From Candidatus Sulfotelmatobacter sp. (GTDB taxonomy: Bacteria; Acidobacteriota; Terriglobia; Terriglobales; Acidobacteriaceae), in assembly GCA_030041475.1 (NCBI GenBank), contig JASHNU010000092.1, positions 1-64,000 on the forward strand: 64,000 bases of DNA, given 5' to 3'. The notes beneath the pieces were generated by a model that did not search any database, was not told the origin of the DNA, and saw nothing but the letters and a program-made list of their open reading frames with translations. Below, in pieces: positions 5,333-51,382 of this stretch (within the stretch, counting starts at the first letter, position 1; each line of letters begins with the position of its first letter). The translations under genes were made by a program, and so were the position numbers.

Positions 5333-6547
5333 TCACCGGTTGGCGCGCCGGAAGTTGATATCACCGGTTGTGGTGCGCACCTTCAACATGGGGCCGCCGC
5401 CGTTCAGCTTGCCCTCGGCAGTGTAGGTCTTGGGTCCATAGTCTCCGCCTTCGCTGTGGACGTGAATATCGGGAAAGTCGGAGGTGATGCGGTGTCCGTT
5501 CGCCAGATCGACGCTGGCACGCACGCTGAGCGCGACGTCCGACGCGATGTACACGGTAATGTCGCCCGCTGAAGTTTCCAGCATCGAGTCGTGGCGTTCT
5601 CCGCCGGTGCTCACCAGCTTCACAACGATTCCGCCGGCGCCGGTTTCGGCCTGAGCCGAAGGAACACCGTAGAGCTCAATACCACCCCCGCCGGTTTCGG
5701 CGTGAACATGTCCCTTGGCCGACGAGAGGCGGATGGTGCCGCCGCCCGTATCGATCTCGGCCGGACCGCCGATGTCGCCCAGATCCACACTGCCGCCGCC
5801 TGTGGAGGCCTTCACCTTTCCGTTGCAGCGGCGAACCTGAATGCTGCCGCCGCCGGTTTCGATAATCGCGCCCTGGGCGCCGTTCTGGATTTCCACGCTG
5901 CCGCCGCCGGTTTCGGCGACAACCTTGCCGTTGGCTTGGTGGACTTCGATGGAGCCGCCGCCGGTGTGCAAGCCGATATCGCCGCTCACCGTGCCCAGGT
6001 CAATCGATCCGCCGCCGGTTTCGGCATTGACGCCGCCGCCAATGTCATCGAGGTGAATGCCTCCGCCGCCGCTCTCGGCCTCCACGCGCCCGCTCACGCC
6101 CGTGGCGTCGACTTCGCCCCCGTCCGTTTCGAGCTTTACTAATGCCATTTCACGAGGTACACGGATGGAAAATTCAGAAGAGCAACGGCGCGGCTGGTGT
6201 CCCGTTTGCCATTCCGCCTCAATCCACCCGGTATCACCCTTCACGTAAGCGCTCACTTTGTAATTTTCGAACTGACGGCGCGCTTCCTGCTCGGAAGAAT
6301 TTGCATAACGGATATGAGCTGAAAAATCGATGCCCTGCTGTTGTCCGCCGCGAACGATCAACGAACCCATGTCGACTTTGACTCTCAGGTTCTTGACCCC
6401 AGCCAGCGAACCAGTGATTTCCTGGCCCCAGTCGTGGTCTTTGCGAGAGACATGTGCTTCCTGCGCCTGACCCACAGAAATAAGGGCCAGCGGCACAAGC
6501 AGGGCCGGCACTGCGGCCAGCCCAACGATTTTGATACAACGTTTCAA
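5333..6547 (-). CDS. Exported DUF4097-family beta-solenoid protein
   Basis: A 404-residue exported protein. It starts at TTG 6547, supported by GAGGTAGAGAT directly upstream; no ATG in the frame fits. Signal peptide: MKR followed by a hydrophobic stretch and VGQAQ. After a 100-residue leader domain, residues 139-300 form nine copies of an exact 18-residue unit centred on ETGGGSI, then a DUF4097-type end (ETSAGDITVYIASDV and TTTGDINFRR). Such repeats in DUF4097/DUF4098 proteins predict a right-handed beta-helix of stacked short strands with glycine-rich turns. Binding partner and role are unknown; the location between an anti-sigma factor and a PDZ protein suggests envelope surveillance. Confidence 0.85.
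   Translation of the reverse strand: MKRCIKIVGLAAVPALLVPLALISVGQAQEAHVSRKDHDWGQEITGSLAGVKNLRVKVDMGSLIVRGGQQQGIDFSAHIRYANSSEQEARRQFENYKVSAYVKGDTGWIEAEWQTGHQPRRCSSEFSIRVPREMALVKLETDGGEVDATGVSGRVEAESGGGGIHLDDIGGGVNAETGGGSIDLGTVSGDIGLHTGGGSIEVHQANGKVVAETGGGSVEIQNGAQGAIIETGGGSIQVRRCNGKVKASTGGGSVDLGDIGGPAEIDTGGGTIRLSSAKGHVHAETGGGGIELYGVPSAQAETGAGGIVVKLVSTGGERHDSMLETSAGDITVYIASDVALSVRASVDLANGHRITSDFPDIHVHSEGGDYGPKTYTAEGKLNGGGPMLKVRTTTGDINFRRANR
5648..6133 (-). repeat. 54-bp coding tandem repeat, nine copies, in the DUF4097 gene
   Basis: Residues 139-300 of the overlapping gene repeat with an 18-residue period: LETDGGEV, AESGGGGI, AETGGGSI, LHTGGGSI, AETGGGSV, IETGGGSI, ASTGGGSV, IDTGGGTI, AETGGGGI, then a degenerate AETGAGGI. 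The spacing is exactly 18 residues in the first eight intervals and 17 in the last. At DNA level the GGGS codons are strongly conserved (GCCGCCGCC on the plus strand), while the remaining codons have diverged, so the array is old rather than a fresh slippage product. Confidence 0.9.
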
Positions 6548-6601
6548 ATCTCTACCTCATTTCCTTTCCTGTTCGAGCCGCGCTGGAATATCTTTTTTTC
6601 C

Positions 6602-7549
6602 TTAATCAATCTCCGGCAACTGGGCCAGCATCGTCCGCGCTTGCGATTTGATGTATGTGCTCGAATCCTTCGCGGCCAGCGTCATCAGAACGCCGCGCAC
6701 GCTGCCATCGGCCTTCACCGGCTCGAGCATGCGCAACGCCTCGGTGCGCACTCCGGGATTCGTATCATTCACCAGCGCCCGCAGCATAGCATCGCGCACG
6801 CGCGTGTCCTGCTTGACATAGGGACCGAGCGCATCCAGCGCCTTGAAGCGTACGCCCGGATTCGAGTCATACTGCAGCGCGTAAATCAGAGCGTCGCGGA
6901 AGTGCGTGTCGTTGGGATTCTGCGTCATCAGTCCAACGGAATCCATGCGCACGCCGGAGTTGTAGTTGTTGCGCGCCGCGTACAGCAGCAGTTGCTGAAT
7001 CCGCTGGTCGTTTAGCGATCCCTGAAGTTCCTGCGTCGAAGTGGTGTTGTACTTGATTGTGACCTGGTTGCTCCCCGGCTCCTGCGTGACCGAATCAATA
7101 CCGGTGATGGAAGCATCGTTGACCGCCGCGGCTGGGGCAGGTCCTGCGGGTTGCGGCCCGTGCGAGTAGAGCTTGTAAGTGGTCCCCACTCCGCCGGCAA
7201 AACCGAGAATCAGAATCACCGAAGCGAGGGCGGGCGAGAATCGGATTTGCCTTAGCCAATTTCCCGGATCGAACGCCAGCCGGCTGAAGAAGCTGCCTTG
7301 CTTGGCCGTCTCCAGCGCTTCCTGCAGCCGCATGCGTGAAGCGGCCAGCAGATTCGGCGACGGGTCGTTCATCAATGGATTCGTCGCGCGATCCTGCTCC
7401 AGCAGTGCGTGGAAATCCTGCTCGGCTTTCAGTTCGGCGGCGCAGTCGGCGCAGCGGGCTACATGCTGCTCCAGTTCGTGGCGGGCGTCATCGGCCAGTT
7501 CGCCGTAAACGTGGAGCACGATATTTTCTCTGACCCATTCGCACTTCAT
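6602..7549 (-). CDS. Zinc-finger anti-sigma factor with HEAT repeats
   Basis: A 315-residue protein, probably the membrane anti-sigma factor of the upstream ECF sigma gene. The N-terminus has the zf-HC2 motif H-x3-C-x2-C (HVARCADC) followed by a helical sigma-binding region. One transmembrane helix lies near residue 105-125 (FSPALASVILILGFAGGVGTTY). The external part carries HEAT-like repeats in which (N/D)xNPGVR recurs (DSNPGVRFKAL and DTNPGVRTEAL), useful for protein-protein contact. Gene order sigma, anti-sigma, DUF4097, PDZ suggests that the external HEAT domain senses or docks one of the exported neighbours. This combination of ZAS domain and HEAT sensor is known in Acidobacteria-type genomes; the specific signal is unknown. 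Confidence 0.87.
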   Translation of the reverse strand: MKCEWVRENIVLHVYGELADDARHELEQHVARCADCAAELKAEQDFHALLEQDRATNPLMNDPSPNLLAASRMRLQEALETAKQGSFFSRLAFDPGNWLRQIRFSPALASVILILGFAGGVGTTYKLYSHGPQPAGPAPAAAVNDASITGIDSVTQEPGSNQVTIKYNTTSTQELQGSLNDQRIQQLLLYAARNNYNSGVRMDSVGLMTQNPNDTHFRDALIYALQYDSNPGVRFKALDALGPYVKQDTRVRDAMLRALVNDTNPGVRTEALRMLEPVKADGSVRGVLMTLAAKDSSTYIKSQARTMLAQLPEID

Positions 7550-7639
7550 ATCCGTTTCCCTTTCCGTGGCGTCATCCCGAAGCCTCGCGTTTTAACCAGC
7601 GAGGCGAGGGATCTCACGTGCAGCTACACGGTCCATGCC

Positions 7640-43164: not shown

Positions 43165-44757
43165 TCACTGGCAGCTGGTGAACTTAAACGCGATGATCCG
43201 CGTCGACCACTGCGTCGTTCCGCTGGCTGCTGAAGAATAGTATTCGTTGCTGTACCAGAACGTGCAGTCGTCGGAAGGATCGACCGCCATGATGGAGTGA
43301 TCGCCCCACTCGCCTCCGGCGGAGCTGCCCTCGTAGCCTGTGCCGACGATCACGGTCTCGACAGTTTCCATCGTGTTCAGTGGATCGGTCGCCAGCCGTC
43401 CCGTGAACATGATTCCGGGATCGATCTTTGGACCTGCATTGCTGAATCCGAGCGCGATGTTGCCGGCCTGGTCCATGTTGGCTGAGCCCATCCAGAAGTT
43501 GTCGTGCAAACCCGGCGTCAGGCTGCCTTGCTGAGCCACAGCAGGACTGGTACTTGGATTCGTGATGTCGAACCACTGCTCGGTCATGGCATTGCTGCCG
43601 GCGATGGCATCATTGACGACCAGGTGCTCGGTTCCATCCGAAGTCTGGCGCCACGCCAGGGGAACCATCAGGCGATCGCTGCGGGAATTGAGAAAGCCCT
43701 CCGGCTCGGGGACTACCTCACGCCCCTCCGAAAAGGCGTTCACGGCCACCGCGGTCGGACCGCTGAAAGTGGAGTTTTGGGGAGTGAAGAAATCGACGTG
43801 GAAGCTCCACAGGTTCAGCGCGCTGTGCACACCTGCAGTGCCAGCGGCAATGTCGAGGAAAAACTCCGGCTCTCCCGTGGCAGGTTGAGTTCCACCCGCG
43901 ATGTCGGCCGGAAGCATTAACGAATCGGTAGAGGCGGACTTGGAAAAGCACTGCATCGGGGCCGGCTGCGCGCCGGTCAACATCGACGTCCGATCAAGCG
44001 CACAGGCTCGGGGGCCGAGATACGCGGGCTTGGGGCTGATCATGTTGAAACCCATGTAGTAGGCGTCAGTCCAAATGCCCAGCTTGGGATAGTCCCAGAT
44101 GGGGTTCTGGTTTCCGGTCTCCGCAACCTCGTACAGGTAGTACGACCCGGTGGGATCGGAGGTGGTCGAAACAGCGAGGCATAGCCAGTATGCTCCCTGC
44201 GTTGGGACAAATATGGGAAGGGCAAGGACCCATTGACCCGCAGCCTTGTCGTACCGGATGTCGAAGTCGTCGCCCGAGCCTGGGGTGCTGCAGGCACCAT
44301 TCCCGAATCCGGTCCAGGGCAACGTGAGCGGATCGGGCCCTTCGACTACGCTCAGGTCGCTCTTGTTGTAGATGGTGAACACATTGTCGACGGTCTGCAT
44401 CACGTATTGTTCGCTCACTGCCATGTCAGTGTCGGGCACGTCTTCGTAGGCTGACGATCCGTTGTTATCGTTGCCGTCGCAATTCAGAACGATGGTGAAG
44501 TTGCCAACAGTTCCTCCGGAAGAGCAAGGCGTAACGGTCGCGGACTGCGAGGACGAGCTTCGCAAAAAAGATTGGCGGAAAGAAGACCGGCTAAGAGAAG
44601 ATCGCCCGAGAGGCGCTGCGGTTCCGGACAAAACCCGCAAAGGCAGCGACTCCTGCGGGCCGATCATGGGGTAAAGCGATGGAGGTTCGCTCTGCGCGCA
44701 GACTGCGGCGCAGAGGATCGTGCACAAGAACGCGAGAACTGCAAAGCAAGCCTTCAA
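43165..44757 (-). CDS. Large secreted protein, probably propeller-like, unknown
   Basis: A 530-residue exported protein. It starts at TTG 44757 (no ATG fits), with signal peptide KACFAVLAFLCTILCAAVCAQ. After a Ser-rich linker the mature part shows repeated short strands and turns such as DIRYDKAAGQWVLALPIF, YWLCLAVSTTSDPTGSYYLYEV, PKLGIWTDAYYMGFN and TGYEGSSAGGEWGDHSIMAVDP, consistent with a multi-bladed propeller. Four or more cysteines are present. The family is common in Acidobacteria but has no known activity. Single gene downstream of the REP cluster and upstream of the F420 cluster, same strand as it but 113 bases after npdG. Confidence 0.7.
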   Translation of the reverse strand: MKACFAVLAFLCTILCAAVCAQSEPPSLYPMIGPQESLPLRVLSGTAAPLGRSSLSRSSFRQSFLRSSSSQSATVTPCSSGGTVGNFTIVLNCDGNDNNGSSAYEDVPDTDMAVSEQYVMQTVDNVFTIYNKSDLSVVEGPDPLTLPWTGFGNGACSTPGSGDDFDIRYDKAAGQWVLALPIFVPTQGAYWLCLAVSTTSDPTGSYYLYEVAETGNQNPIWDYPKLGIWTDAYYMGFNMISPKPAYLGPRACALDRTSMLTGAQPAPMQCFSKSASTDSLMLPADIAGGTQPATGEPEFFLDIAAGTAGVHSALNLWSFHVDFFTPQNSTFSGPTAVAVNAFSEGREVVPEPEGFLNSRSDRLMVPLAWRQTSDGTEHLVVNDAIAGSNAMTEQWFDITNPSTSPAVAQQGSLTPGLHDNFWMGSANMDQAGNIALGFSNAGPKIDPGIMFTGRLATDPLNTMETVETVIVGTGYEGSSAGGEWGDHSIMAVDPSDDCTFWYSNEYYSSAASGTTQWSTRIIAFKFTSCQ

Positions 44758-44870: not shown

Positions 44871-45590
44871 CTATCGATAAGCCGCCGGGGGCAAGCCGGT
44901 GATACGGATGCCAGCGTGGCCTTTATGGCGGATGTTGAGGCCGATCAGTAACGCCGTGATTTGTTCGACGATCCGTGCATTTTCCAGTCTGCCGCCGTCG
45001 ATGGCGCGGACGCCGGGAATTTTGGCTGCCAGTTCGCGGGTAAGTTGTGCCGCGTCCGGATCGTCGCTGCAAACGATCACGTCGCAGTCGAGCGGCGCGT
45101 CGCCGCTGCGTCCGATGTTATTGAGAAGATCTGCGGACACATTGTGGAACGCCGCGACCACACTCACTTCCTCGGGGACGAGTTCGGCGGCTTGCTGCGC
45201 CGCCGACCCTTGCCAGACGCCGAGCGTGCGCGAGGCGCGTCCGCCCAGGCTGGCAGCGAGCGGAACCGTGGCGTCGATCAGGATGCTGCCCTCGGTCATG
45301 GCGGGCTTCAACTGTTTGAGCAGGGCAGCCTGGCCTTCAAACGGAACGGTCAGCACGAGGATGTCAGCGGCGGCACAGGCGGCGCTGTTCTCCATGCCGG
45401 ATACGTTCGCCTGGTTTCCTACCTTCAGTTGGATCGCCGCTGCCGCCAGTTGCGCGCGTTGCTCGTCGCGCGAACCGATGATGATGGTTTCCCCCGCGCG
45501 CGCCCAGCGCAGGGCCAGTCCCATGCCGGCCGGGCCGGTGCCCCCTATGATCGCGATGGGGCGAATAGGGACGGCAGAATTCGAGTTCAT
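44871..45590 (-). CDS. npdG: F420-dependent NADP reductase (8-hydroxy-5-deazaflavin:NADPH oxidoreductase)
   Basis: A 239-residue enzyme that exchanges hydride between F420 and NADP. The NADP-binding motif is IAIIGGTGPAGMGLALRWARAGETIIIGSRDEQRA (GxGxxG variant GGTGPAG, with SRD for the 2'-phosphate), then AADILVLTVPFEGQAALLKQL and VSVVAAFHNVSADLL. It overlaps the cofH stop by four bases (ATGA), so it is translationally coupled to F420 synthesis and is the end of the cluster. It implies that F420 in this organism is linked to the NADPH pool. Confidence 0.9.
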   Translation of the reverse strand: MNSNSAVPIRPIAIIGGTGPAGMGLALRWARAGETIIIGSRDEQRAQLAAAAIQLKVGNQANVSGMENSAACAAADILVLTVPFEGQAALLKQLKPAMTEGSILIDATVPLAASLGGRASRTLGVWQGSAAQQAAELVPEEVSVVAAFHNVSADLLNNIGRSGDAPLDCDVIVCSDDPDAAQLTRELAAKIPGVRAIDGGRLENARIVEQITALLIGLNIRHKGHAGIRITGLPPAAYR

Positions 45591-46822
45591 GCGAACTCGG
45601 CCTCGAGGGTTTCCACGGTGAATTCAGCTTCGTTGAACGGAAGCTTGATCTGGATACGCGAATAAGTCGTGTTGCGCTCAGCTGGGATGCGGCCGATCTC
45701 AAGAATCAGCGACTGAAATTCTTCCGGGCTGGTGTACTGGCCGGCCGTGGCCCCGGCTTCGCGCGAGATGTTCTCCTCCATCAGTGTGCCGCCGTAATCA
45801 TTGGCCCCGGCGTGCAGGCAAAGTTGCGAAAGGCGTCGGTTCAGCTTGACCCACGACACCTGAATGTTGCTGATCGAACCGGCGAGCAGGACTCGCGCCA
45901 GCGCGTGAACTTTCAAGTGTTCAGCCAGCGTGGGGCCGCTGCGCGCCAGTCCCTGATGAAAGAGCAGCGTGTTCTGATGCACGAAGCCCAGCGGTACGAA
46001 CTCGGTAAAGCCTCCGGTTTCGCTTTGAATGTCGCGCAGGAGCCGCATCTGGCGCGCCCAGTGTGCTGGAGTCTCGGCATGGCCGTACATCATCGTCGAA
46101 GTCGTGCGAATGCCGCAGCGATGCGCCGTGCGGATGACCTCGATCCACTGCGCGGTGGAAAGTTTGTTTGCCGAAAGAATGTGGCGGACTTCGTCGTCGA
46201 GAATTTCGGCAGCGGTGCCGGGGAGGGTGCCGAGGCCGTTGTCGCGCAGCATCGAGAGATAGTCGGCAAGATGCATGCCGGTCAGCTCGACGCCGTAGAC
46301 GATTTCCATCGGCGAAAAGGCGTGAATATGCATGCGCGGAACGGCCGACTTGATCGCGCGCAGAATATCGCGATAGTAGAACTTGTCGAGATCGCGGGGC
46401 AGACCGCCCTGAATGCAAACTTCGGTGGCGCCGAGCCGCCAGGCTTCGCGGGCCTTTTCAGCCATGTCTTCGAGCGAGTGAAAGTAGGCATCGGATTCGC
46501 GCGGTCCTCGGCTGAAGGCGCAGAACTTGCATCCCACAAAACAAATGTTGGTGAAGTTGATATTGCGGTTGACGACGTAGGTAACGATGTTACCCACCAG
46601 CTCCGCGCGAAGAATGTTGGCTGCGACCAGCAGGCCTAGGAGGTCGTCGCCTTCGGCGTTGGCCAACGCGTAGGATCCTTCGAGAGATAGGCTTGCGCCG
46701 TCTTGCGATTCGAGAACTCGCTCGAGAGATGCGCGCAACGCCGGAGTCATGCGCGGAGCAATGTCGACCCAGTTGAGCGTGGGGAAGGACTCAAGTTCGG
46801 CGATAGCAACTTGGCGAAGCAC
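45587..46822 (-). CDS. cofH: FO synthase subunit 2 (5-amino-6-(D-ribitylamino)uracil-tyrosine synthase)
   Basis: A 411-residue radical SAM enzyme that joins tyrosine to 5-amino-6-ribitylaminouracil in FO synthesis. Start GTG 46822 is preferred (CACGGAG six bases upstream) over the longer frame to 46897. The cluster motif C-x3-C-x2-C is CFVGCKFC; further CofH segments are GATEVCIQGGLPRDLDKFYY, HAFSPMEIVYG, TTSTMMYGHAETPAHWARQMRLLRDIQ and GANDYGGTLMEENISREAGA. It is separate from CofG, in contrast to the fused FbiC of Actinobacteria. It overlaps npdG by four bases. Confidence 0.94.
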   Translation of the reverse strand: MLRQVAIAELESFPTLNWVDIAPRMTPALRASLERVLESQDGASLSLEGSYALANAEGDDLLGLLVAANILRAELVGNIVTYVVNRNINFTNICFVGCKFCAFSRGPRESDAYFHSLEDMAEKAREAWRLGATEVCIQGGLPRDLDKFYYRDILRAIKSAVPRMHIHAFSPMEIVYGVELTGMHLADYLSMLRDNGLGTLPGTAAEILDDEVRHILSANKLSTAQWIEVIRTAHRCGIRTTSTMMYGHAETPAHWARQMRLLRDIQSETGGFTEFVPLGFVHQNTLLFHQGLARSGPTLAEHLKVHALARVLLAGSISNIQVSWVKLNRRLSQLCLHAGANDYGGTLMEENISREAGATAGQYTSPEEFQSLILEIGRIPAERNTTYSRIQIKLPFNEAEFTVETLEAEFA

Positions 46823-46989
46823 CGGTTCTCCGTGACGAGAATTTGATTCTATGCGGTTTTGATTCGGTTGTCTTGCCGGTGGAGGGGCAAAGCGCAAACC
46901 GGGTCGAGCGCGCGACCGGACAGCCCCTTCGACGCGCTTCGCTTGCTCAGGGCCAGGCTAAGTGCGGCGGCTGTCCCTACATAAATCTC

Positions 46990-47775
46990 TTAGCGAAATA
47001 AGTCACTCGCTGCAGGGCGGAGCAGTTCGCGAACGCCACCGGCGCCCGAATCGTAGCGAAATCCGCGAATTACGCACGCGGGTGTGCGTTCGAGTTTGCC
47101 GCATACCAGTCCCGCAGCGCAGGCCAGTTCATCGGCCACAGCCTCCACACTTGCTTTCAGTCTGTAGCCATGAGGATCGCGCCGGCCGCGGTCGTCGCGT
47201 AACGGCCTGATTCCGGCGATGCCGATAGCGAATTCGGCCAGGCCCTCGCGCCACGGACGTCCGAAACTGTCGGTAATGATGACCGGGATGGAAAGGCCGG
47301 TCCGTTTCTTCACGTCGCGGCGCAGGTTGGCGGCGGAGCGGTCGGGATTTTCGGGAAGTAATACGGCGTGGCGGCCCCCATCCACATTGGAGACGTCGAT
47401 GCCGCTGTTGGCGCAAAGGAAACCGTGATGCGTTTCGGTGATCAGCACGCCGTTCTTGCGGCGGATGACGGTGCGACTCTCGCGTAGAGCCAGTTCAATC
47501 ACCCGCGGATCGAGCGCGTATTGTTTCGCCCAAGCCACAGACTCCTCTGATGGCAAAATCGTCGCCAGGTCAACAAGTCGGCCTTCTGCCTTCGAAACAA
47601 CCTTGTGCTTCACGACCAAGATGTCACCGGATTGAAGCCGTAACCGGCGCCTGCGGAGAACTGCGAGCAGTTTGTCCGCGATGGAGTCGCCGGGAAGAAT
47701 TTCGCCGGAGAGTGGAAGGGGGATGACGCGGAGTTCGGACGAGGAACGGGAACGGCGACTTGATGGAGCTTTCAT
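46990..47775 (-). CDS. cofE: Coenzyme F420-0:L-glutamate ligase, single-domain
   Basis: A 261-residue GTP-dependent ligase that adds glutamates to F420-0. Typical CofE features: VIPLPLSGEILPGDSIADKLL, GDILVVKHKVVSKAEGRLVDL, NGVLITETHHGFLCANSGIDVSNVDG (metal site) and IITDSFGRPWREGLAEFAIGIAG. The length fits CofE alone; the C-terminal nitroreductase-like domain found in mycobacterial FbiB is absent. In the cluster it follows cofC by 79 bases. Residues 1-15 are a basic Ser/Arg-rich leader (KAPSSRRSRSSS). Confidence 0.93.
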   Translation of the reverse strand: MKAPSSRRSRSSSELRVIPLPLSGEILPGDSIADKLLAVLRRRRLRLQSGDILVVKHKVVSKAEGRLVDLATILPSEESVAWAKQYALDPRVIELALRESRTVIRRKNGVLITETHHGFLCANSGIDVSNVDGGRHAVLLPENPDRSAANLRRDVKKRTGLSIPVIITDSFGRPWREGLAEFAIGIAGIRPLRDDRGRRDPHGYRLKASVEAVADELACAAGLVCGKLERTPACVIRGFRYDSGAGGVRELLRPAASDLFR

Positions 47776-47854
47776 AGGCGCGGAAAGCGAAAGAATTCAG
47801 CGGCTAAAGCCGCAGGTTTTATCTTAGGGGATCGATCGGAGCGCTGGAAGCGCT

Positions 47855-48541
47855 CTACCCCAGCATGCCAAAATCGGGCTTGCTGGGGACCCCGGCGCTG
47901 CGCCACCCAAAATCGCGGGCGAGCTGTTGAGCGCGGGTTTCGCCGGGCAGAGAGAGCAATTGTTGCAGGTCGGAAGGATTGTCCACGTCGACGGCAATCC
48001 CCGGCAGTTGCAGCACAACGCAAGGCTTGCCCGTCGCTTGTGCGACGGCATGATGCGGCTTAAAGCTGTCGTTGCCAAAACGCAGCGAGAAAAGACCGGC
48101 CGGGCGGCGGAAAGCGGCATTCGTGCCGCGCCCGTCGGCAGCTGGGACCAACACACTCCCTTCCACGGGTGCCTGCTTCAGGATTTCGTCGAGTTCCCAG
48201 GCTTGAATCAGAGGAATATCGGCGGGGATCACCAGCGTGCTCTCGGCTCCACGCTCGACGCAAACTCGCGTGGCCATCCCGATGGCGCCGGTTTCGCCGG
48301 GATTATCAGGGTCGGGGATGATTTCAAATCCGTACGTGTTGGCGAGCTTCACCGCGTAAGGATCGCTGGTGACGACTGCCACCTGTGGTCGCTGCTTCCA
48401 GCCACGCAAAGTCTCGAGAACGTCTTCGAGCATCGCCTGAGCCAATGCCGTGCGCGCGGGCTGGTCTAGGACCGCGGCCAGGCGTTGCTTGGCGGAAGCC
48501 AGGTTCTTGACAGGAACCAGAATTACCGGAGATAAGCTCAC
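47855..48541 (-). CDS. cofC: 2-phospho-L-lactate (or PEP/3-PG) guanylyltransferase
   Basis: A 228-residue nucleotidyltransferase activating the side-chain acid with GTP for CofD. Family landmarks: ILVPVKNLASAKQRLA (nucleotide loop), VVTSDPYAVKLANTYG, LVIPADIPLIQAWELDEIL (metal-binding Asp) and GTNAAF. Which acid is used (2-phospholactate, phosphoenolpyruvate or 3-phosphoglycerate) cannot be decided by eye. It overlaps the cofD stop by four bases, ATGA, and is coupled to it. Confidence 0.92.
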   Translation of the reverse strand: MSLSPVILVPVKNLASAKQRLAAVLDQPARTALAQAMLEDVLETLRGWKQRPQVAVVTSDPYAVKLANTYGFEIIPDPDNPGETGAIGMATRVCVERGAESTLVIPADIPLIQAWELDEILKQAPVEGSVLVPAADGRGTNAAFRRPAGLFSLRFGNDSFKPHHAVAQATGKPCVVLQLPGIAVDVDNPSDLQQLLSLPGETRAQQLARDFGWRSAGVPSKPDFGMLG

Positions 48542-49554
48542 GGCTCGCGTTCCAGGCGCCGGAAAGCGCCCGCGGCGGGTTCTTCCTTCAACGAGCCCGC
48601 TTTCGGCAGATCCTCTTTCAGCAGGCCGCCGACCACGAGCGACAGAACCTCACGCGCCAGCGCAGCCTTGTCGTCGGCGTTGCGCATGATGGTTTGGGTG
48701 CACTGTACGCGCAGTCCCTTCTGGCGCAAAACTTCGGCGGCGCGGGCGTCGCGCGTGTCGCAAACGAGAAGATCGAGAAAATCCTCGTACACTTGCGCCA
48801 CGCCGGCGATCGAACACGGCAGTCCCTGCGCAGCCATCAGGATTCCAGCGGGGCCTGCGACGGGAGCATTCCCGACAATTGGGCTGACCGCGGCGATTTT
48901 TCCCTTCGCCCGCAGCAGGGCATCGCGAATCCCGGGCACGGCCAGAATGGGGCCAATGCTGGTGACAGGATTGCTCGGGGCGATGATGACAGCGTCGGCG
49001 GAAGTGATGGCATCGATGACGCCCGGAGCAGGCTCGGCATCGCTGGCTCCGGCGAAGCGTACGGACCGCACCGGATCCTGATACCACCGCTGCACGAAAT
49101 ATTCCTCGAAGCTCAACTCGCCCACGTTCGGCGTCTCGATACGCGTTTCCACGCGCGAGTTGCTCATGGGCAGAACGCGCGCCTTCACTCCCAGTTTGCT
49201 GGAGACGACCGCAGTGGCTTCCGAGAGCGTCTTGCCTTCGGCCAGCAGGCGCGAACGCAGCAGGTGCATGGCCAGGTCACGGTCGCCGGTATGAAACCAG
49301 GTGGGTTCGCCCAGCTGTCCCATGGCCTGCAGGCAAAGAAAGGTGTCGCCTTTGACGCCCCATCCGCGCTCGCGGCTCAACATGCCGGAGAGAACGTATG
49401 TGATCGAATCAATGTCCGGTGAAACATAGAGCCCCCACCAGAGCAGGTCGTCGCCGGTGTTGACAACAATGGTGATTTCTTCGGCGGGCATCACCTGGCG
49501 CAGGCCGTCGACGAACTTCGCCCCGCCGGTGCCACCGCTCAGAACGCAAATCAT
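48538..49554 (-). CDS. cofD: 2-phospho-L-lactate transferase
   Basis: A 338-residue enzyme that transfers the activated lactyl or enolpyruvyl phosphate group to FO. The N-terminus MICVLSGGTGGAKFVDGLRQ and the following VNTGDDLLWWGLYVSPDIDSITYVLSG with the metal-binding Asp pair are diagnostic, as is ITSADAVIIAPSNPVTSIGPILAVPGIRDAL. Second gene of the cluster, 13 bases after cofG. Confidence 0.95.
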   Translation of the reverse strand: MICVLSGGTGGAKFVDGLRQVMPAEEITIVVNTGDDLLWWGLYVSPDIDSITYVLSGMLSRERGWGVKGDTFLCLQAMGQLGEPTWFHTGDRDLAMHLLRSRLLAEGKTLSEATAVVSSKLGVKARVLPMSNSRVETRIETPNVGELSFEEYFVQRWYQDPVRSVRFAGASDAEPAPGVIDAITSADAVIIAPSNPVTSIGPILAVPGIRDALLRAKGKIAAVSPIVGNAPVAGPAGILMAAQGLPCSIAGVAQVYEDFLDLLVCDTRDARAAEVLRQKGLRVQCTQTIMRNADDKAALAREVLSLVVGGLLKEDLPKAGSLKEEPAAGAFRRLEREP

Positions 49555-49567
49555 TTTGCGTTCCTCC

Positions 49568-50815
49568 TCATGCCGCCCTCACCAATCTTGCCATACCGTG
49601 ATCATCCGCCGTGGCGCGCAGTTTCTCTGACAGTAGGCCGGGCTTCGATATGAGCGCAGGCAGAAACTCCGGATACACCGGCAGACGCTGGCTCAGAGTG
49701 CATCCCCGCGCCTCGGTGCGCAGGCGAAGCTGCTCCAGGTGAGGCCAGGGCTTTTCTGGATTGATGTAGTCCGGCGTCAGCGGCGAAATTCCTCCCCAAT
49801 CATTGATGCCCGCATCCAGCAACTCCTCATAGTATGGCGCTGAGAGATTGGGTGGAGCCTGAATATTGACCTCAGGGAGTAACAAGCGAGCTACCGCCAC
49901 AGTGCGCAGCATCTCGCCATGCGAGGGCTCAGGCCAGTGCGCCATGGGGATCGCGGGCTTGACGCGAAAGTTCTGCACGATCACTTCCTGGATGTGGCCG
50001 TAGCGGTCATTCATATCGCGCAGGGCCAGGAGCGTATCGACGCGGTCCTCGCGCGACTCGCCAATGCCAATCAGCAGGCCGGTCGTGAACGGGACGCGCT
50101 GCTTGCCGGCGTCTTCAATCGTGCGCAGGCGCTTGGCGGGGACTTTATCGGGAGCATTGTCGTGCGCCGCGCCAGGAGCGAGCAGGGATTCGTTCGTGGT
50201 TTCAAGCATCAGTCCCATGCTGGGGGAGACGGCGGCTAGGCGGGCAATCCACTCGGCGCTGAGCAAGCCGGGATTGGGATGTGGCAGCAGGTTGGTCTCG
50301 CGCAGTACGAGTTCGCACATGGCTTCGAGATAATGCAGCGTAGATTTGTAGCCGAGATGGCGGAGCGTGTCGCGCATTTCGGGGAAGAGCAGTTCAGGTT
50401 TGTCGCCCAGACTGAAGAGAGCTTCCGTGCATCCGAGTTTTTCGCCGGCGCGGGCGACGGCGAGGACTTCGTCGGGCGACATCGTGTGCGCGCCGGGGTC
50501 GCCGGAATTGCGGCGAAAAGTGCAGTATCCGCAGTAATCGCGGCAAAGGTTGGTCAGCGGGATGAAGACCTTCCGCGAATAGGTGATGACGCCGGGCTTG
50601 AAGCGCTCTTTGGCAGCGCGGGCGGCGGCGAGAAGTTCAGCAAGATCTGCGTCGGAGCAGCGGATGAGCGTTAGAGCTGCTTCGCGAGAAATGCGAACGC
50701 CGGATCGAATGTCGTTAAGCGCAGACGCAGGAGTGCAGCTTAGGGCAGGAGTGCGCAGCGCGCGGTCTTCTGCCTGCGTACGTATTTTTGCGGGCGTGCT
50801 CCAGGTCAGGGACAC
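49568..50815 (-). CDS. cofG: FO synthase subunit 1 (7,8-didemethyl-8-hydroxy-5-deazariboflavin synthase)
   Basis: A 415-residue radical SAM enzyme forming the deazaflavin ring of F420. GTG 50815 is preferred: CGAGGCAGT precedes it and longer frames up to 51277 run into the divergent gene. The cluster motif C-x3-C-x2-C is CRDYCGYC, followed by TFRRNSGDPGAHTMSPDEVLAVA and GCTEALFSLGDKPE, LHYLEAMCELVLRETNLLPHPNPGLL, and the C-terminal GINDWGGISPLTPDYINPEKPWP. First gene of the F420 cluster, divergent from a flavin reductase-like gene with 54 bases between the starts. Confidence 0.93.
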   Translation of the reverse strand: MSLTWSTPAKIRTQAEDRALRTPALSCTPASALNDIRSGVRISREAALTLIRCSDADLAELLAAARAAKERFKPGVITYSRKVFIPLTNLCRDYCGYCTFRRNSGDPGAHTMSPDEVLAVARAGEKLGCTEALFSLGDKPELLFPEMRDTLRHLGYKSTLHYLEAMCELVLRETNLLPHPNPGLLSAEWIARLAAVSPSMGLMLETTNESLLAPGAAHDNAPDKVPAKRLRTIEDAGKQRVPFTTGLLIGIGESREDRVDTLLALRDMNDRYGHIQEVIVQNFRVKPAIPMAHWPEPSHGEMLRTVAVARLLLPEVNIQAPPNLSAPYYEELLDAGINDWGGISPLTPDYINPEKPWPHLEQLRLRTEARGCTLSQRLPVYPEFLPALISKPGLLSEKLRATADDHGMARLVRAA

Positions 50816-50869: not shown

Positions 50870-51382
50870 ATGAGCCTGAATCCGGCCGATTTTCGCAAGG
50901 CGATGGGCTGCTTCGCCACAGGCGTGACGATTATTACGGTCGATTTGGGCGACGGGAGCCATCATGGGGTTCATGGAATGACCGCGAATGCGTTCGCTTC
51001 GGTATCGCTCGAACCGCCGCTGGTGCTGGTTTGCGTCGATCGCCAGGCGAGCACGCATGCGCATCTGCATGCCAAGAAGCGTTTCGGGGTCAACGTACTG
51101 TCGGAAGATCAGCGGGCGATTTCCGAGTACTACGCGCGCGCCGACCGCACCGACACCGACGCCGAATCCGTGGCCGGCGCCCGCTTTGATCGAACGCACC
51201 ATGGAACTCCCGTGCTGCGCGGGGCACTGGCCTATCTCGAGTGCCGGTTGCGTTCGACGGAAGAAGCGGGAGATCATACGATTTTTATTGCCGAGGTCGA
51301 AGATGTGCTGGTGCGCGAGGGCGAGCCGTTAGTCTTCCATCGAGGGCAGTATCGGAAGGTAGGGGCAGGCGTAGACAAGTAG
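50870..51382 (+). CDS. Flavin reductase-like FMN-binding split-barrel protein
   Basis: A 170-residue protein of the flavin reductase-like (PF01613-type) family. Signature: [69 protein letters not shown] and [30 protein letters not shown]-like segments. It binds FMN and often partners a monooxygenase. Because it shares its start region with the F420 gene cofG, a link to deazaflavin metabolism is possible, but it is a different fold from the FbiB nitroreductase domain. No monooxygenase gene is next to it. Confidence 0.85.

Follow-up and report, generated by a model that had tools for sequence, protein, structure and literature searches.

Genes for the biosynthesis of coenzyme F420, in the order cofG-cofD-cofC-cofE-cofH-npdG, are found on the minus strand (44871-50815) of a 64,000-nucleotide stretch of DNA from Candidatus Sulfotelmatobacter sp. 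(GenBank assembly GCA_030041475.1, contig JASHNU010000092.1, positions 1 to 64,000), which is called here the window. FO synthesis, activation, transfer and glutamylation are all encoded in it. Overall, this is an ordinary chromosomal operon of a soil acidobacterium, with a real gap at the reduction of dehydro-F420-0, and the genome offers a concrete candidate for an enzyme left unknown in the literature. Related to this, PMC6450877 leaves the enzyme of this step unknown in archaea and some bacteria under the name 'CofX', and how F420 is finished where FbiB and FbiE are lacking is an open question in print. The reading preferred here, with a probability of about one in three, is a phosphoenolpyruvate (PEP) route in which a protein of the FDOR-B class would act as the dehydro-F420-0 reductase with F420H2 as donor; PEP, the role of FDOR-B and the donor are what we infer. 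It is doubtful whether this constitutes a distinct acidobacterial maturation route, partly autocatalytic, in which an 'E-type' CofC is combined with FDOR-B as a non-nitroreductase CofX.

All six proteins score above the cut-offs of their NCBIfam equivalog models and, by these scores, are members of their Cof and NpdG families. The first-pass annotation of this DNA had described a collinear cluster with two overlaps of four bases, and the coordinates confirm it (cofD/cofC at 48538-48541, cofH/npdG at 45587-45590). Its statement that CofG and CofH are separate and that CofE has no nitroreductase domain also holds, as CofG and CofH match TIGR03550 and TIGR03551 from separate genes, and CofE, of 261 amino acids, contains PF01996 (F420_ligase) as its sole domain, with no C-terminal PF00881 domain of the kind that marks an FbiB fusion. 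The mycobacterial FbiC/FbiD/FbiA/FbiB system carries out the same chemical steps from FO, phospho-acid and glutamate (PMC6450877). In contrast to it, the window has separate CofG and CofH, a CofE devoid of the nitroreductase domain and a CofC with Glu in place of Leu92, and no PF00881 match was found in its genome.

This last point was established with the nitroreductase profile PF00881 at E<=0.001, which gave no match in the whole assembly (4.63 Mb, 99.56% complete) and was positive in 14 of 14 control genomes. A stand-alone FbiE, which would be a PF00881 protein in the genome, was accordingly not found. Because the defining features of both systems were looked for and are absent, the locus represents neither an FbiB nor an FbiE pathway, and for the known class the missing reductase is a real gap in the whole genome, to the extent that the assembly covers it. 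It had been proposed earlier that, if PEP is the substrate of CofC, a dehydro-F420-0 reductase is missing from the locus; this is borne out, with no FbiB- or FbiE-type gene there, and the separate FbiB-type nitroreductase elsewhere in the genome that would have spoken against the proposal did not appear.

The same profile was applied to a sample of 100 genomes of the same family, 42 of them CofD-positive (the window genome included) and 58 CofD-negative. Positivity means a match above the TIGR01819 cut-off, so that the weaker matches in G060, G031, G070, G095 and G054 are excluded from the positive group. PF00881 gave no match in 13/42 CofD-positive genomes, that of the window among them, versus 8/58 CofD-negative ones, and nitroreductases therefore do not track F420 genes in this family. 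A PF00881 protein of any kind as universal reductase was discarded, being present in 29/42 CofD-positive genomes but in 50/58 of the others. Thermomicrobium roseum, which uses the stand-alone FbiE, shares the adjacent cofD and cofC with the window and has a nitroreductase family gene near cofC (TIGR03553, 163.4 bits, below the cut-off of 249.55), whereas none was found in the window genome; at E 1e-6, a search with this nitroreductase revealed no relative in the 149 loci fetched around cof genes or PF01613 matches (L062-L101, L113-L201 and L232-L251).

Since no nitroreductase-type dehydro-F420-0 reductase was found in the genome, FDOR-B is proposed for this step. The protein in question, of 132 amino acids (contig C33 of the window genome, 72862-73260), reaches 123 bits with TIGR03618, the F420-dependent PPOX class, against a cut-off of 79.05, and thus joins a group that includes Rv1155 and MSMEG_3380. 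Its closest PDB sequence is 3f7e (E 3.1e-23), which is MSMEG_3380, an FDOR-B1 protein (PMC8498797). The class was first noticed beside cof genes in relatives that lack the flavin reductase gene fre, which is discussed below. It is present in 41/42 CofD-positive and 2/58 CofD-negative family genomes (Fisher p 1.8e-24, uncorrected for phylogeny; as the genomes share ancestry, such p-values overstate the evidence), and these counts omit weaker paralogues such as that of G071 at E 3e-11. Table 1 of PMC8498797 gives the distribution of FDORs as Actinobacteria and Chloroflexi; the FDOR-B proteins of this family follow CofD almost one to one in the sample. The two CofD-negative genomes with FDOR-B are G077, which has no CofD match but in which cofG and fre adjoin at the end of a contig, and G065, which is 84% complete. 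By comparison, the luciferase-like monooxygenase TIGR03842, a presumed F420 user with one copy in the window genome, occurs in just 22/42 CofD-positive genomes.

FDOR-B is also found in all six CofD-positive genomes without PF00881, without fre scoring about 143 bits or more and without c11, a nitroreductase gene also treated below, although G004, one of these genomes, does give a weaker match to PF01613 (132.4 bits). Concerning linkage, FDOR-B begins 10 nt past the stop codon of cofE in G292 (L248), and in G075 (L085) it is encoded on the strand of npdG and shares 32 nt with that gene; altogether, 10 of the 149 loci contain FDOR-B, at distances of up to about 8 kb from a cof gene. In a sample of the phylum, 23/39 CofC-positive genomes carry it versus 2/258 others. 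Outside family f47 it is present in 23/27 CofC-positive genomes (in G306 at 41% identity only), whereas in f47 it is present in 0/12, and the 12 CofC sequences read there, that of G243 included, are all of the Leu-Asn (LN) type; f47 is a single lineage, and this counts as one contrast, not as twelve independent ones. As to the other 27, CofC was left unread in G321 and G145, and the position equivalent to Leu92 is His in G239 and Gln in G168 and G013.

In the proposed pathway, CofG and CofH would make FO, the E-type CofC would couple GTP with a 3-carbon phospho-acid, which is most likely PEP, CofD would pass the activated phospho-acid to FO, and CofE would add the glutamates. NpdG would reduce the cofactor with NADPH and keep the deazaflavin reduced, and FDOR-B would use the hydride supplied in this way to reduce the enolpyruvyl double bond. 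This last step is suggested by the near-universality of FDOR-B, its position near cof genes in a number of relatives, the lack of the other candidates in six CofD-positive genomes and the reduction of a C=C bond by FDOR-B members in tetracycline biosynthesis (PMC8498797). On this evidence FDOR-B is the best candidate for the dehydro-F420-0 reductase, but it may be a core F420 user only. The genome-wide absence of the known class, together with a pathway-tracking FDOR-B behind cofE in a relative, makes the proposal testable with a few purified proteins, and its outcome could help engineered F420 production.

Several observations weigh against this assignment. Co-occurrence cannot separate a maturation enzyme from a core user, because the same profile would be expected of every core enzyme that depends on F420. 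In the window genome FDOR-B lies away from the cof genes, on another contig, where its neighbours look by eye like a homoserine dehydrogenase, an S-adenosylmethionine (SAM) hydrolase and a nucleoside phosphorylase, and in most of the fetched cof loci it is not near cof genes either. It was not found in G053 (CofD-positive, 91% complete), in G060 (which has cofG and a partial cofD though it is outside the CofD-positive group) or in 4/27 CofC-positive genomes outside f47. A second TIGR03618 protein above the cut-off (contig C46) adds paralogues to be weighed in the window genome itself. Besides, the cofactor would help to finish its own precursor, and bootstrapping of F420 would be needed; a rival from the nitroreductase (NTR) superfamily, c11, directly follows npdG in G082, of the same genus, and in other relatives; and no biochemistry was found for any acidobacterial enzyme of this set. 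Among the literature matches listed (titles and abstract openings, with subscription journals mostly uncovered), none dealt with F420 maturation in acidobacteria, with a role of FDOR-B in reducing dehydro-F420-0 or with a link between SagB and F420.

With regard to the substrate, the CofC of the window has the properties of a guanylyltransferase: its score exceeds the cut-off of the equivalog model, the metal-binding Asp triad (D108, D185, D187) is present, and the AlphaFold2 (AF2) model (mean pLDDT 90.2) has the expected fold, with structural matches to 7p97 (Z 28.8; root-mean-square deviation 1.5 over 195 residues), 6bwh (Z 26.2) and 2i5e (Z 25.2). The first of these, the CofC of Mycetohabitans, whose F420 is built from 3-phosphoglycerate (3-PG), is the best PDB match in both sequence and structure. 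The earlier suggestion of a 3-PG substrate was nevertheless not borne out by the specificity residues. In the CofC of M. rhizoxinica, Ser162 (Ser/Thr) is diagnostic for 3-PG, and mutants other than Thr turn over chiefly 2-phospholactate (2-PL) and, less, PEP (PMC8764529). The equivalent residue is Gly156 in the window, and Gly stands there in 37/38 family rows (the other being a gap), 64/64 rows from named genomes and 20/20 rows from elsewhere in the phylum; a CofC of the 3-PG type was rejected on this test. The 3-PG route, giving 3PG-F420, would need no reductase, but it is unlikely, and indeed scarcely to be expected, because Gly replaces the diagnostic Ser/Thr.

A second pocket position separates the acidobacterial proteins from characterised ones. 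E83-T84 of the window CofC corresponds to L92-N93 of Mycobacterium tuberculosis (Mtb) FbiD and to M91-A92 of Mycetohabitans, and L92 is counted among the PEP-contacting residues (PMC8764529). Whereas a hydrophobic residue is typical of the Mtb position, Glu83 occupies it here; the family rows have Glu or Gln in 38/38 (36 Glu, 2 Gln), followed by Thr or Ser at position 84, and elsewhere in the phylum Glu or Gln is found in 16/20 (15 Glu, 1 Gln), the remainder being 3 Leu and 1 His. Named acidobacterial rows give 64/64, but the patterns [GS][EQ]T... and D[IV]PL..., by which loci L113-L176 had been obtained, bias motif counts in favour of this residue; the family set, obtained via CofD matches, and the phylum set, obtained via the TIGR03552 model, are free of this bias. 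The reference proteins, three PDB chains and eight from plasmid loci (39 plasmid records had a CofD match, 10 were fetched and 8 yielded CofC), have Leu, Met, Ile or Tyr in 11/11. The residue of these proteins was assigned visually in the gapless register G-x-x-x-A; in the automatic alignment, Mtb and M. mazei were misaligned at this loop and Leisingera was missing. As judged from these alignments, acidobacterial CofC is mostly E-type, with Glu or Gln where characterised CofC/FbiD proteins hold Leu or Met, and this provides a sequence marker for uncharacterised F420 pathways. The four CofC proteins of L177-L180 (three alphaproteobacterial, one Rokubacterial) have His-Thr at this position (GHT).

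An E-type pocket could also mean that the substrate of CofC is a different saturated 3-carbon phospho-acid, for instance 2-phosphoglycerate, which Glu83 and Arg138 would hold and which would give an F420 with a new side chain. The constancy of Glu/Gln would agree with it, as would Arg138 in 37/38 family rows (one gap), but Arg138 is found in just 4/20 rows elsewhere in the phylum, CofD would have to accept the substrate too, and the change from Leu to Glu may be structural, because residue 83 is the first residue of a helix in the AF2 model. This explanation is therefore held to be very improbable.

The main rival is a route in which CofC and CofD use 2-PL, as in methanogens, with no reductase required and with FDOR-B as a widespread F420 user; it is considered possible. 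PEP and 2-PL cannot be told apart from sequence, and CofC assays cannot do so either, CofD acting as the filter of the product (PMC8764529). The window shares separate CofG and CofH and a single-domain CofE with the methanogen set, and its CofD is closest, among PDB chains, to the 2-phospho-L-lactate transferase 3c3d (E 2.6e-77, 263.3 bits), from M. mazei (species according to PMC7253369), ahead of the phosphoenolpyruvate transferase 6uvx (E 3.6e-51, 177.4 bits). A 2-PL route would also account for the 13 CofD-positive genomes without a PF00881 match. Against it, no enzyme making 2-PL is known (PMC6450877), redox genes (FDOR-B, fre, c11) are recurrently linked to cof genes, and the CofD of T. 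roseum, an organism in which dehydro-F420 is reported to be reduced (PMC8498797), is 45.2% identical to that of the window over 87% of its length. Differences from the methanogen system extend to the CofC pocket, Glu-Thr instead of Leu-Asn, and to the inclusion of npdG in the operon. PEP is favoured here because of c11: this gene, a member of the superfamily responsible for dehydro-F420-0 reduction elsewhere, is part of the cof operon in G082 (CofD 85% identical to that of the window) and neighbours FDOR-B in two other relatives, although it was not found in the window genome.

It could also be argued that FDOR-B is just a core F420 user and that another enzyme reduces dehydro-F420-0, an explanation which we regard as doubtful. 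The FDOR-B members whose function is known act with F420H2 on different substrates (PMC8498797), and in the window genome the gene has no linkage to cof genes; on the other hand, the direct adjacency to cofE and to npdG in two genomes and the presence of FDOR-B in all six genomes without the other tested candidates argue for a role in maturation. Another possible agent is the product of fre, divergent from cofG, which could reduce dehydro-F420-0 directly or by supplying FMNH2. This gene is the sole PF01613 match of the window genome (E<=0.001), it adjoins cofG, its high-scoring homologues (at least about 143 bits) are found in 25/42 CofD-positive versus 2/58 CofD-negative genomes, and it takes up two arrangements within 1.5 kb of cofG in relatives. 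This reading is nonetheless improbable: fre was not found above that score in 17/42 CofD-positive genomes, in several genomes it is lined up with coxMSL-like genes and a luciferase-like oxidoreductase, as a partner flavin reductase might be, its co-directional form is a separate clade on a long branch, and G005 has fre with neither CofD nor an adjoining cof gene. The pathway through PEP and FDOR-B is kept as the preferred one.

Features of the cof locus in the window
Feature	Coordinates	Strand	Basis
cofG, FO synthase subunit (radical SAM)	49568..50815	-	TIGR03550 447.3 bits, cut-off 213.35
cofD, phospho-acid transferase to FO	48538..49554	-	TIGR01819 336.6 bits, cut-off 257.45
cofC, guanylyltransferase activating a 3-carbon phospho-acid	47855..48541	-	TIGR03552 153.4 bits, cut-off 105
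cofE, F420-0:L-glutamate ligase, single domain	46990..47775	-	TIGR01916 250.6 bits, cut-off 180.65
cofH, FO synthase subunit (radical SAM)	45587..46897	-	TIGR03551 491.5 bits, cut-off 374.1
npdG, NADPH-dependent F420 reductase	44871..45590	-	TIGR01915 235.7 bits, cut-off 149.8
CofC E83-T84 codons	48290..48295	-	alignments; coordinates counted from the cofC start
CofC Gly156 codon (3-PG diagnostic Ser162 position)	48074..48076	-	alignment and PMC8764529
fre, divergent flavin reductase	50870..51382	+	PF01613 154.8 bits

The cofG start at 50815 (GTG) is one among several in-frame starts, and cofH has an alternative GTG start at 46822. From the former, the fre start is 54 bp away, and msrB is the next gene beyond fre. 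Both fre and FDOR-B are non-nitroreductase candidates outside the options considered in the first-pass annotation, which did not list fre.

The figures for fre depend on a cut of about 143 bits that was chosen after seeing which matches neighboured cof genes. The next PF01613 scores are 141.9 and 141.3, in frames of 664 and 584 amino acids (G025 and G091, both CofD-positive), and lower matches were omitted, 65/100 genomes having a match at E<=0.001. Its position was tallied in 78 loci, 12 loci with less than 1.2 kb of flank and seven without cofG having been set aside, along with a further seven (L080, L125, L130, L137, L142, L144 and L151) that were matched by cofH and have no cofG in the stretch. 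It lies within 1.5 kb of cofG in 52 of the 78 (43 divergent and 9 co-directional before cofG), farther off in 5, and is lacking in 21; the locus sets share genomes (for example, L077 is L116, L090 is L149 and L063 is L174). As a universal candidate fre was rejected on its presence in just 25/42 CofD-positive genomes. Rows of fre with coxM-coxS-coxL-like genes, the genes being named by eye, occur in L184, L185, L187 and L190; in L187 and L190 a luciferase-like oxidoreductase and two membrane proteins come between them, and in L184 the coxMSL-like genes come directly after fre. This row is perhaps an F420- or flavin-linked molybdenum hydroxylase pathway.

The gene c11 encodes a tandem SagB-type nitroreductase (TIGR03605) of 525 amino acids. 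It is located at L116:11737-13314 and L077:3954-5531, and also occurs in L115, L117, L118, L125, L236, L238, L244 and L245. In L245 it comes immediately after cofE on the same strand, in L244 it is on the opposite strand, tail to tail with cofE, and in L236 and L238 it comes immediately before FDOR-B, again on the same strand. It is present in 19/42 CofD-positive versus 1/58 CofD-negative family genomes; these counts include fragments or partial copies (G003, G073, G076, G071, G086) and omit the distant ones of G040, G099 and G050, and G003, tallied above as free of PF00881, contains a c11 fragment. Neither c11 in the window genome nor a remnant of it within the window was found, and with 19/42 it was rejected as a universal candidate. 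It is possible that c11 is an NTR-type dehydro-F420-0 reductase of other acidobacteria.

The arrangement of the operon is ordinary within the family and not due to chance, because the same full order was found in 30/40 family loci, fetched from 40 of the other 41 CofD-positive genomes; the remaining 10 are partial, several of them at contig ends. Its closest named relatives are metagenome-assembled genomes of Candidatus Sulfotelmatobacter (CofC 84%) and, for fre, a member of the family Candidatus Korobacteraceae (90%). Loci from other families of the phylum, 20 of which were fetched with flanks from the 32 CofC-positive genomes outside family f1, have a different gene order, for example npdG-cofD-cofC-cofE.

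Some minor observations were made in the same loci. Directly downstream of npdG, the window has a 530-amino-acid open reading frame (43165-44757, minus strand) whose start resembles a signal peptide by eye and which matched no Pfam family at E<=0.001. In the relatives, three genes read by eye as an OpuC-type-like ABC transporter fall into clusters found in 21, 20 and 19 of the 40 family loci (L073, L092 and L100 among them), almost always immediately after npdG; they were not seen at the window locus. In L078 (G036), a single frame of 602 amino acids (5791-7596, turned orientation) spans CofD, and CofC has no separate frame; this looks like a CofD-CofC fusion and fits the idea of channelling from CofC to CofD (PMC8764529). 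Finally, in L235, L239 and L251, of family f47, an LN-type CofC precedes a frame matching both CofG and CofH, and in the first two npdG-cofE-cofD also stand ahead of CofC, resembling some proteobacterial plasmid loci; these loci were possibly acquired by transfer.

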